From Treponema sp. (GTDB lineage: Bacteria > Spirochaetota > Spirochaetia > Treponematales > Breznakiellaceae): a DNA stretch of 58,981 nt. Each line of letters opens with the position of its first letter. Within the stretch, counting starts at the first letter, position 1. The notes under the pieces were generated by a model. The model ran no database searches, had not been told where the DNA came from, and saw only the letters and a list, made by a program, of their open reading frames with translations. The DNA is taken from contig WQXU01000017.1 in the NCBI GenBank assembly GCA_009781635.1, forward strand, positions 1-58,981, written 5' to 3'. The translations under genes and the position numbers were made by a program. Below are positions 51,826 to 58,595 of the stretch, in pieces.

Positions 51826-51906
51826 ATTGTTAGATTTATACGTCCCTATAAACTAAGCATGTTTTGCAAGTTATTGGGGAAAAAACCAAAAGAACAGGAG
51901 AAAGTT

Positions 51907-54711
51907 ATGAGAAAGTATTCATGGATCCTGGCGCTATTTGTAGTGCTGGCGATGATTTTCGCTGCGTGCGGTGATCCTCCTTCAGGAGGAGGGACAGTAA
52001 CTTGCCCGGGTTGCGGCGAACCGGAAGCCGAATGCTCTTGTGTTGAAACAGGCGATTTTGAACCGGATTTGGAAGATATTGATAATAACCAGCTTCCTGG
52101 TATTGATGAGCCTGAGATAACGGTAGATGAAGACGGACATCCTGTTCTCCACGTTACACAATCAGACCAGAGAATATCCTTTACCCTTTCAGATGCACAG
52201 CATGACTGGATAGAAGCAGCCCTGGCGGCGGAAACAAGGGTAGTTAAGGTCTACATTGAAATTGAAGCTACAGCTAACGCAGAGGTACGTTTTGGTTTTG
52301 CCGATCCTTCTGCCGGCTCAAACTGGAACGGAACCGCTTTAGTAACCGGAAACCTTACAGCCGATACCGAAGAAACCTTGACTGGATTATTCACATCAGC
52401 TACCGGCAACCCCTTTAGCGCGTTCACAATTCAGGCCAGAAATGTTGCAGCAGCATATGATCTTGTAATTAAATCAATAAGATTCGTAATTTACTGCGAA
52501 ATCTGCGGTGAAGGCAATGAATGCGAATGCGAATACGTACCGGAAGTATGTGATGATTGCGGCGAAGACCCCTGCGTATGCCCTGTCTTTATACCTGGTG
52601 AAGAATGCGAAGCATGCGGAGAAATAGGCTGCAACTGTGAAGTACTCTTTGACTTTATAAACAATGCGCATATCCAGAGCAGACCCTTAGGCACATTATC
52701 ATCCGGCGCTTTATGGAATGACGTAGCCGGACTGCAGGCAGCAGGAAGCCCCGAGTTTGCAATGGTAGCAAACGGCGATGATTACAAGGGCGTAAGAATG
52801 TCAGGCTCCGCAGGCTGGATGGGCGTTGATCTTCTAAACTCGACCTTTGATTTCCAGGAAGGCGATTTTATCTTTGCGGTAGCAAGAATAGTCTCCTTTA
52901 CAGTCTCTTCCGGAACTCCGGAAATCCTGCTTAACGCAAGACCCGGCGCATGGGGACCTGTAGGCGCTAACCCGATAGTGACACCAGGACAAGTCATTGA
53001 ACTTAAGCGCACACTGACGGCAACAGACGTTACCAACTTAAAAGGATCGTCTCCTGCGGCAATCAGGCTGCAAATGAACAATGTCTCCCCGTACGTAATA
53101 GAGATTTACCAGCTTAAGATAATAAGAGAAAACGACATGGAGATCATAGACTTCGATGTCGATACCACACATGTCAGGAAAACCTACAAGAAGGGCGATT
53201 CCTTTGATCGGACAGGCATGGTCATTACGGCAACCTACGAGGATGAATCGGAAGGCCCAATCTCCATTACTAGTCCAAGAGTGTCATTCAGCCACGGCGT
53301 ATTTAATGAAGAAGGGGAAATAGAAGTAAAAGTATTCTATAACCATGATGAAATAGCTTCTTTCATGGTCAACGTTATATTCGTTGTAGACATTTCTATA
53401 GATATAGAAAACCTTGCCAAAACGGTTTACAAAAAAGGCGAATCCTTTGACCCCACAGGCATGGTTATAAACGCAGTCTTCAATGACGAGTCAGAAGACC
53501 CAATCCCCTTAGATGATCCTCTGCTTTCATTCATCCCCGCGACATTCACTGCGGCAGGCTCGATTGAAGTAACAGTCATATACGACGAAGAGGAATACGC
53601 ATCCTTTAACGTAACCGTTATAGAAATAGTAGATTTTGAAATAGATTCAGATGATGTACTGAAAGTATACGACATAGGCCAGTCATTTAACCCTGCAGGC
53701 ATTGCGGTAAACGCAATCTACAGTGATGAGTCGGAAGAGCCCATCGACATTGAAGACCTTACATTCAGCCACGGCGTACTTAACACGAAAGGACAAGTCG
53801 AAGTAAAAGTCTTCTACAATGATGAAGAAATCGGCTCCATCACCGTTACCGTAGAGCAGGTGCTTGAATCTATCAGCATAGAAACAAATCCGACAAGAAG
53901 CTCTTATTTCGAAGGAAGGGCAGAGGCGATAGATCTTGCAGGCATTGAAGTGGAAGCCACATACAGAGGCGGCTTTAAAGCAGAACTGGATGCAGAAGCA
54001 ATCACAGGCCTTGTGATTGAAGGATTTAGCTTTAATGCAGCCGGCGTTCAAACCATCACCGTTTCCTACACTGAAGGCGAAGGTGATGACGCAATCACAG
54101 AGTCGGATGATTTTGAAGTTACGGTACACGCTCTTGCCGGCATAAGCGTAGTTCCCATTTCAACAGGTTTCCCGATTGGAGCAGGAACCGAGGAGCTGCT
54201 GACTGAAAGACTTAACAACATAATTGTTACCGCTTCCTACGAAGGCAATGCATTTACAAACCCGATTCATTCAACACTTTACACTTTACATAACAGCGGT
54301 GGAGCGGCCTTCAACGTGTCAATGGTTAACTTTGATGAAGAAGGCAATTTCCCAATTACAATAAGATACCTGGCCTCTTCCGGCACCTTAAAAACCACAG
54401 TCTTCACAGTTATTATCGCCAACAACCAGAACATAACATTCGGCATAGGCGTTAATGACATTATTGAAAAAGCTGAGGAAATAATCGGCGTAAACCTTCG
54501 CTGGACAGGAACACAGAGTGAAACATACACAGTGATAGGAGAGTATGACAGCGTTAAATGGTTCATTGACGAGCTTGACAGAATGGAAGAAGACGAAATA
54601 ACCGTTAGTGTAACCGACTTTGACACACTCGGAAAAAAGATAATGTCGCTTGAAGTTATTGTGGGCGGAAAAACTTATAACAGAACAATTACCTTTACGG
54701 TAGAGCTGTAA
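51907..54711 (+). CDS. Large surface lipoprotein with Ig-like repeats and tetra-Cys linkers
   Basis: The ATG at 51907 has AGGAG six bases upstream; an ATG at 51859 lacks a site and would hide the signal peptide. The 934-residue product has lipobox FAACG (Cys21). Four C-x2-C-x4-6-C-x-C motifs (Cys33-45, 197-208, 215-225 and 234-244) separate two beta-sandwich, carbohydrate-binding-like modules (about 70-195 and 247-408). At least three bacterial Ig-like repeats follow (411-492, 493-573, 574-651; consensus Y..G.SF...G..I.A.Y.DESE.PI), then two more divergent ones. No catalytic domain is visible. It probably binds fibre or holds the downstream xylanase on the cell surface. Confidence 0.85.
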   Translation: MRKYSWILALFVVLAMIFAACGDPPSGGGTVTCPGCGEPEAECSCVETGDFEPDLEDIDNNQLPGIDEPEITVDEDGHPVLHVTQSDQRISFTLSDAQHDWIEAALAAETRVVKVYIEIEATANAEVRFGFADPSAGSNWNGTALVTGNLTADTEETLTGLFTSATGNPFSAFTIQARNVAAAYDLVIKSIRFVIYCEICGEGNECECEYVPEVCDDCGEDPCVCPVFIPGEECEACGEIGCNCEVLFDFINNAHIQSRPLGTLSSGALWNDVAGLQAAGSPEFAMVANGDDYKGVRMSGSAGWMGVDLLNSTFDFQEGDFIFAVARIVSFTVSSGTPEILLNARPGAWGPVGANPIVTPGQVIELKRTLTATDVTNLKGSSPAAIRLQMNNVSPYVIEIYQLKIIRENDMEIIDFDVDTTHVRKTYKKGDSFDRTGMVITATYEDESEGPISITSPRVSFSHGVFNEEGEIEVKVFYNHDEIASFMVNVIFVVDISIDIENLAKTVYKKGESFDPTGMVINAVFNDESEDPIPLDDPLLSFIPATFTAAGSIEVTVIYDEEEYASFNVTVIEIVDFEIDSDDVLKVYDIGQSFNPAGIAVNAIYSDESEEPIDIEDLTFSHGVLNTKGQVEVKVFYNDEEIGSITVTVEQVLESISIETNPTRSSYFEGRAEAIDLAGIEVEATYRGGFKAELDAEAITGLVIEGFSFNAAGVQTITVSYTEGEGDDAITESDDFEVTVHALAGISVVPISTGFPIGAGTEELLTERLNNIIVTASYEGNAFTNPIHSTLYTLHNSGGAAFNVSMVNFDEEGNFPITIRYLASSGTLKTTVFTVIIANNQNITFGIGVNDIIEKAEEIIGVNLRWTGTQSETYTVIGEYDSVKWFIDELDRMEEDEITVSVTDFDTLGKKIMSLEVIVGGKTYNRTITFTVEL

Positions 54712-54725
54712 GAAGGAGATGAAGA

Positions 54726-57700
54726 ATGAAAACAAAGTTTAAATATATCGCAATATTTGCGGTACTTGGCGCTTTACTGGTAATGCCCGGTTGTCAAAAC
54801 GGTTTGTTCCTCCAGGATGAACCTTCCGGCAACTTTATCCTTACCGTAAACAATAACGGCAGAACGATACTTCCCGCCGGTTTGTTAGGCGAGATCGATT
54901 GGTTTGAGCTTTCCATCTATGCCTTTGATGAAGTTGCAGACGATTACGATCGCGAAGATCCTTACTATGAGGATCTTGATTTTGATGTAAGCGAACCTGC
55001 GGTTTTAAATCTGGATCTAGGGATGTATCTAATCGAGGTATACGGCTTTAACGGGGACGGAGAAGAAGTTGCCTTCGGCAAGCTTGAAGACCTTGTGATA
55101 CCGAACGTTGAAGATGTTCACAACATCAATCTGACTCCTATTTTTAGCGGAGAAGGATTCTTTGCGTGGGACTTTACCAATGTTGATGACAGCATAGTAG
55201 ACATCTCCCTAGACTGGACACTTCTTGATGAAAACGGAGAAGACACTGCTACCACAGGATCAGATCCTCTTGAAGGCCTTACAGGAAGCATTCAGTTAGA
55301 CGCCGGCGTATACAGGCTTATTTTCACGCTTGATGACGGTACGGATACAATCACCTGGAGAGAGATACTTCATGTATACAAGAACCTGACAAGCACATTC
55401 GCACCCGGGTGGGACATTGACTTCTTTACCCAGACGCTTGTATGGCAGGCCGCGTTAGCTGCAATCAACGCAGACCTTGAAGACGCTCTTGAAAACATCG
55501 CCCTTGGACATTTTATAGCGGCAGGCATAGCTGGCGTTAACGCAGCCAACCTGGACAGCGTAAAAGCAGCGATAATTGATTACGATAATAATGTTGCTGA
55601 CATTGCAACATTAAAGATACTTGCGGATGTTGGTATCGCTCTTTTCATACTTGACGCAGAACTTGAAGATGCCGAAGAGTTTGCAAATGACGACCTGGCA
55701 GTTGCTGCAATTAAAGCTATTCTTTCTTCGCTGCCGAACGCAAGCGCTCTTGGCTCAGCTTTCAGCTGGGATATAGACGCTGAATCATCAACAGTTAGCT
55801 TCACTATCGGCGGTATTGCTGCAAGTTATACTTTCGATTATGAGATTGTGTTACTCAACTTTGATATAACTGTCGCAGGAGAAACGCAAACGATTAATAT
55901 TTCTGAAATGTTGAGAGTAAATGCAGTAATCGAAGATATTCCGAACGGCTACATCTACAAATACAGCGGAGCCGGGCAGAGGAATTCGTTTGCAACATTC
56001 AAGGTTGATTTAGGCAGCAAAACACTGGCCGATTTTGAATTTGTTTCATTTACATTCCACGGAGTAAGCGGTGATGTTGGATGGAAAAACTTCTATCTTC
56101 TGGCAGCAAATTCGATACCTGATACCACTCCTATTGAAAACACTGCATTAAGAGTAGCTACATTTGCAGAAAATACCGGCAGTGCAGGTACAGACAGAGC
56201 GCAGAAATTAATTATTCCGCTGGAAGGAGCTGATAACATAAAGGCGAAAGCTTTAACAGGTATTATTGATGTGGCTATCTTCTCTGATCAGCCAACTGCC
56301 ACAGGAGATGTTGGCGGCGCCGGCTCGCAGACAGTTTACAGAGTGACAAATATTAATTTTGTCCTTGGCGACCTCTGCGATTACTGTGACCAATACCCCT
56401 GTATATGTATTCCCGGAGAAGATCTACCGCAGATGGTACAGGTAAAAATCCGGGGAGGTGATGTTGACATCATCGATGATGGAAATGGTTTTGTCTTTAC
56501 AAAGACATCAGGATATGAAGCTGCGTATCCCTGGTTCGCAGTAGACTTTAGCGATCTTAAATTGTCAGATTTTGACAGAATTACATTAACTTACCAGGGT
56601 GTTTTAGGAGATGTTGGCTGGAAGACCCTTCAATTAATTGCAAGAGATGAGGAATTCCCTGACGCAAATATTAATCCAAGTTCTCCTTTTGCAAGTTATG
56701 CTTACAGCAACAACGGACAAGCTGCAATGTCGGTTTCTCTTAGTATTGATCCTGATAAAGCGGCTGCATTTGATGATAATGATGAAGTATATTTCTCTTT
56801 CTACTTACATGCAGGAAGCGAACTTCCTATAAAATATTCCATTTCCAATGTCAAGTTTGTAAATAAAGTACCAACAGAAGACAACATAGTGCTTGAGTTT
56901 ACAGATTTGGGAAATAATATACTTACCAGCAATATCAAAGGAACAGCCGGAGGCTATAGTTACGAGTTCTGGAAAAGCGCTGGCGCCGGCCCTGCAACAA
57001 TGACGCTTGGAAGCGGCGGAACATTCAGCGCTGTATGGGAAAAAACAGCCTCTTCAGACAATTTCTTGTTCCGCAGAGGCAGATCATTCAATCCGGTAGA
57101 TAAAGTACACAAGGATGTAGGTTACATAACCATTGACTTCGATGCTGAATTTAATCCTTCAGCTGATGGCGCTGCCTACCTGTGTGTTTACGGCTGGACA
57201 ATAGATTCTTCGAAAGATCAGGGAACTGATCACAGACTGGTTGAATACTACATCGTAGAAAGTATGGGTCCTGGGTATACCCCAACTGGTGAAGCTAAAG
57301 GTTCATTCACTGTTGACGGAAGTGTATATAACATTCATACATCCATAAGAGCAGCCCAGCCTTCTATTGAAGGTACTGCGACCTTCCTGCAATATTGGAG
57401 CATCCGCCAAACACCGCGTGTAAGCGGGGAAATTTCTGTTTCAGAACATTTCCTGAAATGGGAAGAATTGGGAATGCCTCTTGGAAATCTGTACGAGGTA
57501 GCGTTAACAGTCGAAGGCTATAACTCAAGCGGAGCTGCTAATGTAACACACAATGTGTTTACAATAACTGAATGGCCACCGGAAGAAGATGTTGTAGTAT
57601 ATGAAATTCTGAATTTCGCAGATAGAACCATTAATTCATGGAATCAGGTTGATGGAAATATTGGTATTGCAAACACTAACGCTACTCTGGAAGTTGATGG

Positions 57701-58595
57701 CGATACTCTTAAAGTTATACCTGGCGGCAACTATGCCGGAGCAGTAATTGGTGTTGGTACAGCAAATGGAGGAGATGGTCATGGATGGAGCGCCGGAAGC
57801 GCATTTAATCCGCAAGCCGGAAAGACATACGAAATAACCATTAAAATGAGCGGAACTTCTTCAGTAAGAATGAAAATCAACAACAGCGATGCTGGTGAAA
57901 TATCACCAACCTTTACACTTTCCGCAACCCCAACAGATTATAAACATACATTTACATTTGTGTCTCATGACATTGTTTTAGATGCTCCTACAGGTGTTGC
58001 GTATAACATCCACAGTATAGTGATTGTTGAAAAAGCTGAAAATACTGGAAGCGGTTTTATTTTTGACATGCAGGATTTAACATTACCCCAGGCACAAACA
58101 CATTTTGCAGGTCTAAACAACAGAGGCCAGTTAACTGTCACTGAGGTAGCAGGCGATCTGGTCGTAACTGTCACTAATTGGGGTGATCAAGGCGGCGGTA
58201 GTAGCGGTGGCTATCACGATTCTTCAGGTTGGGGTTGGGCTCCTGTGACGATTTTACGTTCAGGACAAGCGCAAGAAGGCGATGTGTTAAAAGTATCTGG
58301 AGAAATTGTTGTTTCCGGAGGGTCTTTCCCAATCAATGCCGGTCAAATGGGTCTCTACCGGGGAACCTTGTTGGGGGGAGATGCAAGGATCAATGACAAC
58401 GGTAATAACTTACCTCAATTTTTTGAGTTAACTCATACCTTAACGGGTGAAGATGCCGAAGCTAACATTCAAATCCGCTGGAACCTCTTTGCCGGGGCTT
58501 TTGCAAACGGCGGTGATATTTGGGTACCTGTTGAAGGTGCCTTTAGCGATAAATTCGCTCTCAAGATTACCAGTGTAACAGTAGAACGTCCCTAG
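54726..58595 (+). CDS. Modular GH11 endo-1,4-beta-xylanase lipoprotein
   Basis: This 1289-residue lipoprotein (lipobox-like MPGC, Cys23) has N-terminal beta modules (35-225), a helical stretch (230-340), a binding-type module (396-548), a tetra-Cys linker (Cys551, 554, 559, 561), a paralogous module (565-712), a GH11 domain (about 722-948) and two C-terminal carbohydrate-binding-like modules (955-1289). GH11 signatures are GGYSYEFWKS, the nucleophile Glu840 in LVEYYIVE, the thumb-region QPSIEGTATFLQYWSIRQ and the acid/base Glu930 in VEGYNSSG. It should cleave xylan backbones. AAGGAGATG precedes the ATG, 14 bases after the companion lipoprotein gene. The fold call is strong; the binding modules are by analogy. 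Confidence 0.9.
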   Translation: MKTKFKYIAIFAVLGALLVMPGCQNGLFLQDEPSGNFILTVNNNGRTILPAGLLGEIDWFELSIYAFDEVADDYDREDPYYEDLDFDVSEPAVLNLDLGMYLIEVYGFNGDGEEVAFGKLEDLVIPNVEDVHNINLTPIFSGEGFFAWDFTNVDDSIVDISLDWTLLDENGEDTATTGSDPLEGLTGSIQLDAGVYRLIFTLDDGTDTITWREILHVYKNLTSTFAPGWDIDFFTQTLVWQAALAAINADLEDALENIALGHFIAAGIAGVNAANLDSVKAAIIDYDNNVADIATLKILADVGIALFILDAELEDAEEFANDDLAVAAIKAILSSLPNASALGSAFSWDIDAESSTVSFTIGGIAASYTFDYEIVLLNFDITVAGETQTINISEMLRVNAVIEDIPNGYIYKYSGAGQRNSFATFKVDLGSKTLADFEFVSFTFHGVSGDVGWKNFYLLAANSIPDTTPIENTALRVATFAENTGSAGTDRAQKLIIPLEGADNIKAKALTGIIDVAIFSDQPTATGDVGGAGSQTVYRVTNINFVLGDLCDYCDQYPCICIPGEDLPQMVQVKIRGGDVDIIDDGNGFVFTKTSGYEAAYPWFAVDFSDLKLSDFDRITLTYQGVLGDVGWKTLQLIARDEEFPDANINPSSPFASYAYSNNGQAAMSVSLSIDPDKAAAFDDNDEVYFSFYLHAGSELPIKYSISNVKFVNKVPTEDNIVLEFTDLGNNILTSNIKGTAGGYSYEFWKSAGAGPATMTLGSGGTFSAVWEKTASSDNFLFRRGRSFNPVDKVHKDVGYITIDFDAEFNPSADGAAYLCVYGWTIDSSKDQGTDHRLVEYYIVESMGPGYTPTGEAKGSFTVDGSVYNIHTSIRAAQPSIEGTATFLQYWSIRQTPRVSGEISVSEHFLKWEELGMPLGNLYEVALTVEGYNSSGAANVTHNVFTITEWPPEEDVVVYEILNFADRTINSWNQVDGNIGIANTNATLEVDGDTLKVIPGGNYAGAVIGVGTANGGDGHGWSAGSAFNPQAGKTYEITIKMSGTSSVRMKINNSDAGEISPTFTLSATPTDYKHTFTFVSHDIVLDAPTGVAYNIHSIVIVEKAENTGSGFIFDMQDLTLPQAQTHFAGLNNRGQLTVTEVAGDLVVTVTNWGDQGGGSSGGYHDSSGWGWAPVTILRSGQAQEGDVLKVSGEIVVSGGSFPINAGQMGLYRGTLLGGDARINDNGNNLPQFFELTHTLTGEDAEANIQIRWNLFAGAFANGGDIWVPVEGAFSDKFALKITSVTVERP

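Follow-up and report, generated by a model that had tools for sequence, protein, structure and literature searches.

Two adjacent lipoprotein genes in the window (the whole 58,981-nucleotide stretch of Treponema DNA analyzed here) belong to a large family of two-gene operons that recurs in the genus and is apparently undescribed in the papers and family libraries that we searched. The A-B lipoprotein operon, a category defined in this analysis, consists of a lipoprotein with a conserved C-terminal Ig-like domain (A) encoded directly upstream of a lipoprotein with a conserved N-terminal region (B), and this is the arrangement found in the window, where B is a predicted GH11 xylanase. Both window proteins additionally contain short tetra-Cys units. 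We propose, with moderate confidence in the proposal as a whole, that these units are metal-knuckle spacers and that A and B act as stalk and payload in operons spread throughout the genus. An earlier, sequence-only reading of the same DNA had taken the units for the link between the two proteins; its overall interpretation is partly supported, but its assembly idea is wrong in the reason that it gave.

The features of the two genes are collected in Table 1, with residues numbered from ATG 51907 for the A lipoprotein, the same start as in its close paralogue L036 elsewhere in the genome, and from ATG 54726 for the xylanase. The five copies of C-x2-C-x4-6-C-x-C described earlier, four in A and one in the xylanase, are all present at the residue numbers originally given. 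It also holds that, lipid Cys aside, nearly all Cys lie inside these motifs: 16 of the 17 in A, the remaining one being the lipobox Cys21, and four of the six in the xylanase, where the others are the lipobox Cys23 and Cys820 in the GH11 domain. Such clustering is not a product of composition, since A reached at most one motif (three times) in 20,000 residue shuffles, compared to the four observed, and the xylanase none in 20,000, compared to one. The lipobox and the GH11 assignment were likewise confirmed, the latter by a Pfam match to PF00457 over residues 743-941 (161.8 bits, curated cut-off 27). The description of the motifs as always lying between folded modules is nearly right: the xylanase copy is located between two homologous domains, but the first copy in A comes right after the lipobox.

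Table 1. Features of the A and B lipoprotein genes, with positions in the window.
Feature	Position	Strand	Remarks
A-type lipoprotein (putative stalk)	51907..54711	+	lipobox FAAC, 4 tetra-Cys units, Big_3 Ig-like repeats, conserved C-terminal Ig-like domain
Lipobox Cys of A (Cys21)	51967..51969	+	sequence MRKYSWILALFVVLAMIFAAC
A tetra-Cys unit 1, CPGCGEPEAECSC, Cys33-45	52003..52041	+	immediately past lipobox
A tetra-Cys unit 2, CEICGEGNECEC, Cys197-208	52495..52530	+	
A tetra-Cys unit 3, CDDCGEDPCVC, 215-225	52549..52581	+	
A tetra-Cys unit 4, CEACGEIGCNC, 234-244	52606..52638	+	
Best Big_3 Ig-like repeat of A	53416..53619	+	PF07523
Conserved C-terminal Ig-like domain of A	54484..54708	+	common to 54/64 proteins encoded directly upstream of B-type genes
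B-type lipoprotein (putative payload)	54726..58595	+	N-terminal B region, two homologous domains flanking one tetra-Cys unit, predicted GH11 xylanase, C-terminal domains
Conserved B N-terminal region, ~220 aa	54792..55436	+	in 31/40 genomes of the genus; 14 copies in the window's genome
B tetra-Cys unit 5, CDYCDQYPCIC, 551-561	56376..56408	+	flanked by two homologous domains of B
GH11 catalytic domain of B	56949..57548	+	PF00457

The unit, C-x2-C-[G/E]-x2-P-C-x-C with some longer variants, would constitute a self-contained mini-module. Besides the window's two proteins, five further lipoproteins of the same 2.77-Mb genome contain it (L033-L037), and with stricter DNA patterns it is confined to lipoproteins in this genome. 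Three of the five are small lipoproteins with tandem arrays of ~7 (L033), 11 (L034), and 13 (L035) units; L036, the paralogue of the window A lipoprotein, has one unit, and L037, at a contig end, has two by relaxed spacing. All three arrays consist of minisatellite repeats (48 bp x 10.7; 45 bp x 6.2 and 57 bp x 6.3; 51 bp x 6.9), and tandem duplication probably grew the unit into stalks of ~7 to 13 units in these three proteins. The units could in principle be a low-constraint by-product of such minisatellites, a Cys-rich repeat spread by slippage and contributing only length, which would agree with the near-identity of the copies in the 57-bp array (97%) and with the restriction of the unit to some species within the genus. 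However, across array copies the Cys codons switch only between TGC and TGT and the Pro and Gly are constant, whereas the spacer residues vary, which argues that the unit is maintained. All four Cys are moreover retained by single diverged copies in unrelated lipoproteins, and the unit's Cys are retained across many phyla in HsdR, as described below, so that a mere by-product appears improbable.

Elsewhere in the genus, clear lipoprotein copies occur in six other genomes (L040-L042, L056, L062, L065, L072), and many of the remaining genus-wide pattern matches look like chance. Within the family but outside the genus, the stricter pattern gives almost no matches. Stricter patterns were adopted because a loose scan, which returned 190 matches against 28 for the reversed pattern, relies on an unfair null, TGC-rich words being common. 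In sampled stretches, 132 of the 146 Cys of motif lipoproteins fall in motifs, and the Cys content of motif-free lipoproteins is 0.64%, compared to 1.24% for other proteins. One lipoprotein of this genome departs from this Cys poverty: a BspA-type LRR protein (L033:6001-9222, + strand) that has 29 Cys in its mature part, approximately one per 22-residue repeat.

The unit is also found far from Treponema. A pattern of two C-x2-C-[G/D/E]-x2-P-C-x-C units in tandem was found in at least 116 stretches of genome contigs; among the 116 matches listed, hallmark sequences identify 91 as type I restriction HsdR subunits, spread over many phyla, and the other 25 are non-HsdR. The HsdR repeats have the same C-x2-C-G-x2-P-C-x-C form, mostly in three tandem copies, and lie between the helicase and EcoEI_R_C (PF08463) domains; in the one HsdR examined in this respect (L090), the helicase extends to residue 528 and EcoEI_R_C begins at residue 644. 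All 12 Cys are invariant across an alignment of 17 HsdR segments, and conservation of the third copy is independent of the search, since the pattern demanded only two. Unlike the window lipoproteins, HsdR is a cytoplasmic DNA translocase, and a Pfam scan found neither the helicase nor EcoEI_R_C in the window proteins, which are thus not HsdR subunits. Units of 11 residues do not decide whether HsdR and the lipoproteins share a common origin, and the likeness may be convergent. Three further tetra-Cys proteins were noted: a 1365-residue open frame, cut by the locus end, with 41 tetra-Cys units (L181:3904-7998, - strand), a protein with three units and a sub-threshold AAA match (L190:340-3003, - strand), and a fragment with three units and no Pfam match (L108:7468-7998, - strand). 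The latter two, neither of them HsdR, are possibly further cytoplasmic uses of the unit.

Its occurrence in HsdR bears directly on the chemistry of the unit, for which the sequence-only reading had offered either metal binding or disulfides. We favor the first option: a single metal ion, most likely zinc, would probably be bound by the four thiolates, and the unit would serve exported lipoproteins as a stiff spacer that can be repeated between their domains. A putative tetrathiolate metal site is the better fit because cytoplasmic HsdR shares the unit, because DsbA, VKOR, and a convincing DsbB are absent, because Cys is otherwise rare in the lipoproteins, and because anaerobes have a tendency to keep Cys out of the proteins that they export (PMC12453122). 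A tiny disulfide knot, in which two intramolecular disulfides per four Cys create a stable linker, would fit the exported location, the even number of Cys per unit, and the Cys-poor remainder of the proteins. However, HsdR works in the reducing cytoplasm, and its conserved unit therefore cannot depend on disulfides. Furthermore, in searches of the window's genome (99.3% complete), neither DsbA nor VKOR gave a match at E values up to 1, and DsbB gave only a sub-threshold one (E 0.06), so that the oxidative folding machinery required by a disulfide-stabilized exported module was not found in the host. We therefore consider the disulfide knot unlikely, although the extracellular thiolates could still oxidize.

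The units might alternatively constitute a surface metal sponge, with a metallothionein-like role in storage or protection rather than as spacers; an array protein of ~340 residues indeed has up to 52 Cys besides the lipid Cys. Copies outside arrays, however, are single or few and placed between domains, as in HsdR, and metallothioneins are small cytoplasmic proteins, and we give this alternative little credence. With regard to the favored metal-knuckle spacer, four potential ligand side chains in conserved spacing, as in zinc knuckles, are seen in the lipoproteins, the Bacillota proteins, and HsdR. The unit is a variant of the known tetra-Cys knuckles: it shares the CxxCG half and the four thiolates in a short loop with zinc knuckles and ribbons such as the rubredoxin-type CPxCG knuckle, but has CxC instead of CxxC in its second half and spans only 11-13 residues in all. 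In a Pfam scan, none of the units in the window's two proteins was covered by a zinc family, no solved structures resembling the unit were found, and AlphaFold2 modeled the HsdR segment poorly (mean pLDDT 54.6; ~74 for the first unit and 46-55 for the others). As a motif common to restriction enzymes and gut surface proteins, the unit would be an uncommon case of a metal-based spacer outside the cell.

The association of the motif with carbohydrate-acting exported proteins, also suggested earlier, holds in some gut Bacillota, where exported proteins combine tetra-Cys units with a family 11 rhamnogalacturonan lyase domain (PL11, in L141) or, in L160, a protein presumably of the same group, with a CBM2 cellulose-binding domain. 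Most motif proteins have no glycoside hydrolase. Other exported proteins of gut Bacillota combine the units with FctA/SpaA adhesin domains (L146) or LRRs (L078), and a Defluviitaleaceae protein with seven units (L114:1552-5679, - strand) has a C-terminal Dockerin_1 match just below the cut-off. Further tetra-Cys lipoproteins belong to a member of the Bacteroidales (L105) and to one of the Clostridia (L128); the records L099 and L149, both from Treponema, are identical to loci of the genus. Our literature search on such a tetra-Cys motif or on lipoprotein pairs returned nothing relevant.

What the two window genes share with the rest of the genus is their pairing. In the window's genome, downstream of each of five motif lipoprotein genes comes a gene for a large lipoprotein in the same orientation, giving five paralogous two-gene operons (L033-L036 and window positions 51859-58595). 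The five downstream proteins have in common a region of ~220 residues past the lipobox and carry different payloads, namely GH11, LRR_5, a Cthe_2159 carbohydrate-binding domain, InlB repeats, and one without assignment. A profile of this B N-region finds ~150 places in 31 of the 40 genomes of the genus, 14 of them in the window's genome. It has no match below E 0.1 among PDB sequences and only weak Ig-like or E-set matches in Pfam and NCBIfam, and its single-sequence structure prediction has a pLDDT of 40. A co-directional frame ends at the start of 81 of 91 B-type frames, with the A-B intergenic gap clustering near 15 bp, and 54 of 64 distinct non-B upstream frames end in one conserved Ig-like domain. 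The profile of this A C-domain was built iteratively from the A proteins of this genome, and its specificity was checked on control stretches: in 400 kb, a strong C-terminal match was seen in one of 371 frames, and that frame adjoins the only B present there.

The two conserved domains have also diverged together. Across 54 pairs, the distance matrices of the A C-domain and the B N-region are correlated (Mantel r 0.43, a value not reached in any of 2000 free or 2000 within-genome shuffles), and 25 of the 54 pairs share their nearest neighbor. As judged from these matrices, the correlated divergence shows co-inheritance of the A and B domains, not contact, because duplication of whole operons alone could give the correlation. 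A and the xylanase thus look paired, as originally supposed, but through a conserved domain pair and not for the reason then given, the Cys motif. In that scheme, the units of A and those of the xylanase bind one another, either by a metal held in common or by intermolecular disulfides, and a fibre-degrading complex is built in this way; the genes are indeed adjacent and co-directional with the unit in both products. The distribution of the unit contradicts this: motif-bearing A proteins number only five, all in the window's genome, which leaves ~49 of the 54 A-B gene pairs of the genus without the motif (most other A proteins have one to three Cys in total), and the B partner lacks the unit in four of the five motif-bearing pairs. 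Nor does the motif accompany GH11 genes in the genus more widely: 28 further GH11 loci all lack a tetra-Cys unit within about 1.5 kb. With most A proteins, most of these B partners, and all 28 GH11 loci lacking it, the unit cannot be a general connector; furthermore, arrays of 11-13 units sit within one polypeptide. We regard pairing through the units as extremely unlikely, and their presence in both window proteins is better read as the use of a common spacer.

The domain content of the pairs suggests a division of labor. In A proteins we find Ig, InlB, YDG, and cadherin-like domains, and in B proteins such domains as GH11, GH26, GDSL lipase, LRR, and FGE-sulfatase; the Ig/InlB-type domains of the former and the enzymes and binding domains of the latter point to A as stalk and B as payload. 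A would accordingly consist of a lipobox, a variable Ig-like stalk, and the conserved C-terminal Ig-like domain, and B of a lipobox, the conserved N-terminal region, and a variable payload, with the C-domain of A likely contacting the N-region of B. The Cys units would then be one of the exchangeable pieces from which this species builds its stalks. In multi-gene operons, the C-domain also occurs in 11 of 16 B proteins encoded directly before another B, compared to none of six before A or nothing (Fisher p 0.012), a rule that covers 22 genes and was sought post hoc; such a tendency is what a daisy chain would be expected to produce. The isolate codes Th196, Lab288, Emb289, and Nt197 we take to denote termite-gut metagenomes. 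A tentative extension of our proposal, possible rather than probable, is a modular surface system of termite-gut treponemes, in which the C-domain of A docks on the N-region of the next lipoprotein, the payload (xylanase, mannanase, esterase, or LRR adhesin) is exchangeable, and metal-knuckle arrays provide stalks of variable length. To our knowledge, it is unclear how the fibre-associated spirochaetes of higher termites display enzymes on the cell; with ~150 payload lipoproteins in 40 genomes, most of those examined having a conserved upstream partner, the question becomes testable. These spirochaetes are regarded as main hemicellulose degraders in their hosts (PMC11481507).

The A-B operon resembles two known arrangements. 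Like the cohesin-dockerin cellulosome, it couples an enzyme to a non-catalytic surface protein of several domains, but Pfam scans found neither cohesin nor dockerin in the A and B proteins, which places them outside the cellulosome, and the tetra-Cys unit is not the connector. The SusD-like lipoproteins of polysaccharide utilization loci in Bacteroidota are likewise paired surface proteins for glycans with variable specificity. The A-B operon differs in comprising two lipoproteins whose conserved parts are the A C-domain and the B N-region, and Pfam scans gave no SusC or SusD family match in either protein. The paired-lipoprotein operon may thus be a system of its own, its spread having been examined within the genus. 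Finally, the genome contains a second GH11 gene (G000:C2:148589-149116; L002, L038) with an in-frame TAG inside the match, which may reflect a pseudogene, a sequencing error, or read-through.
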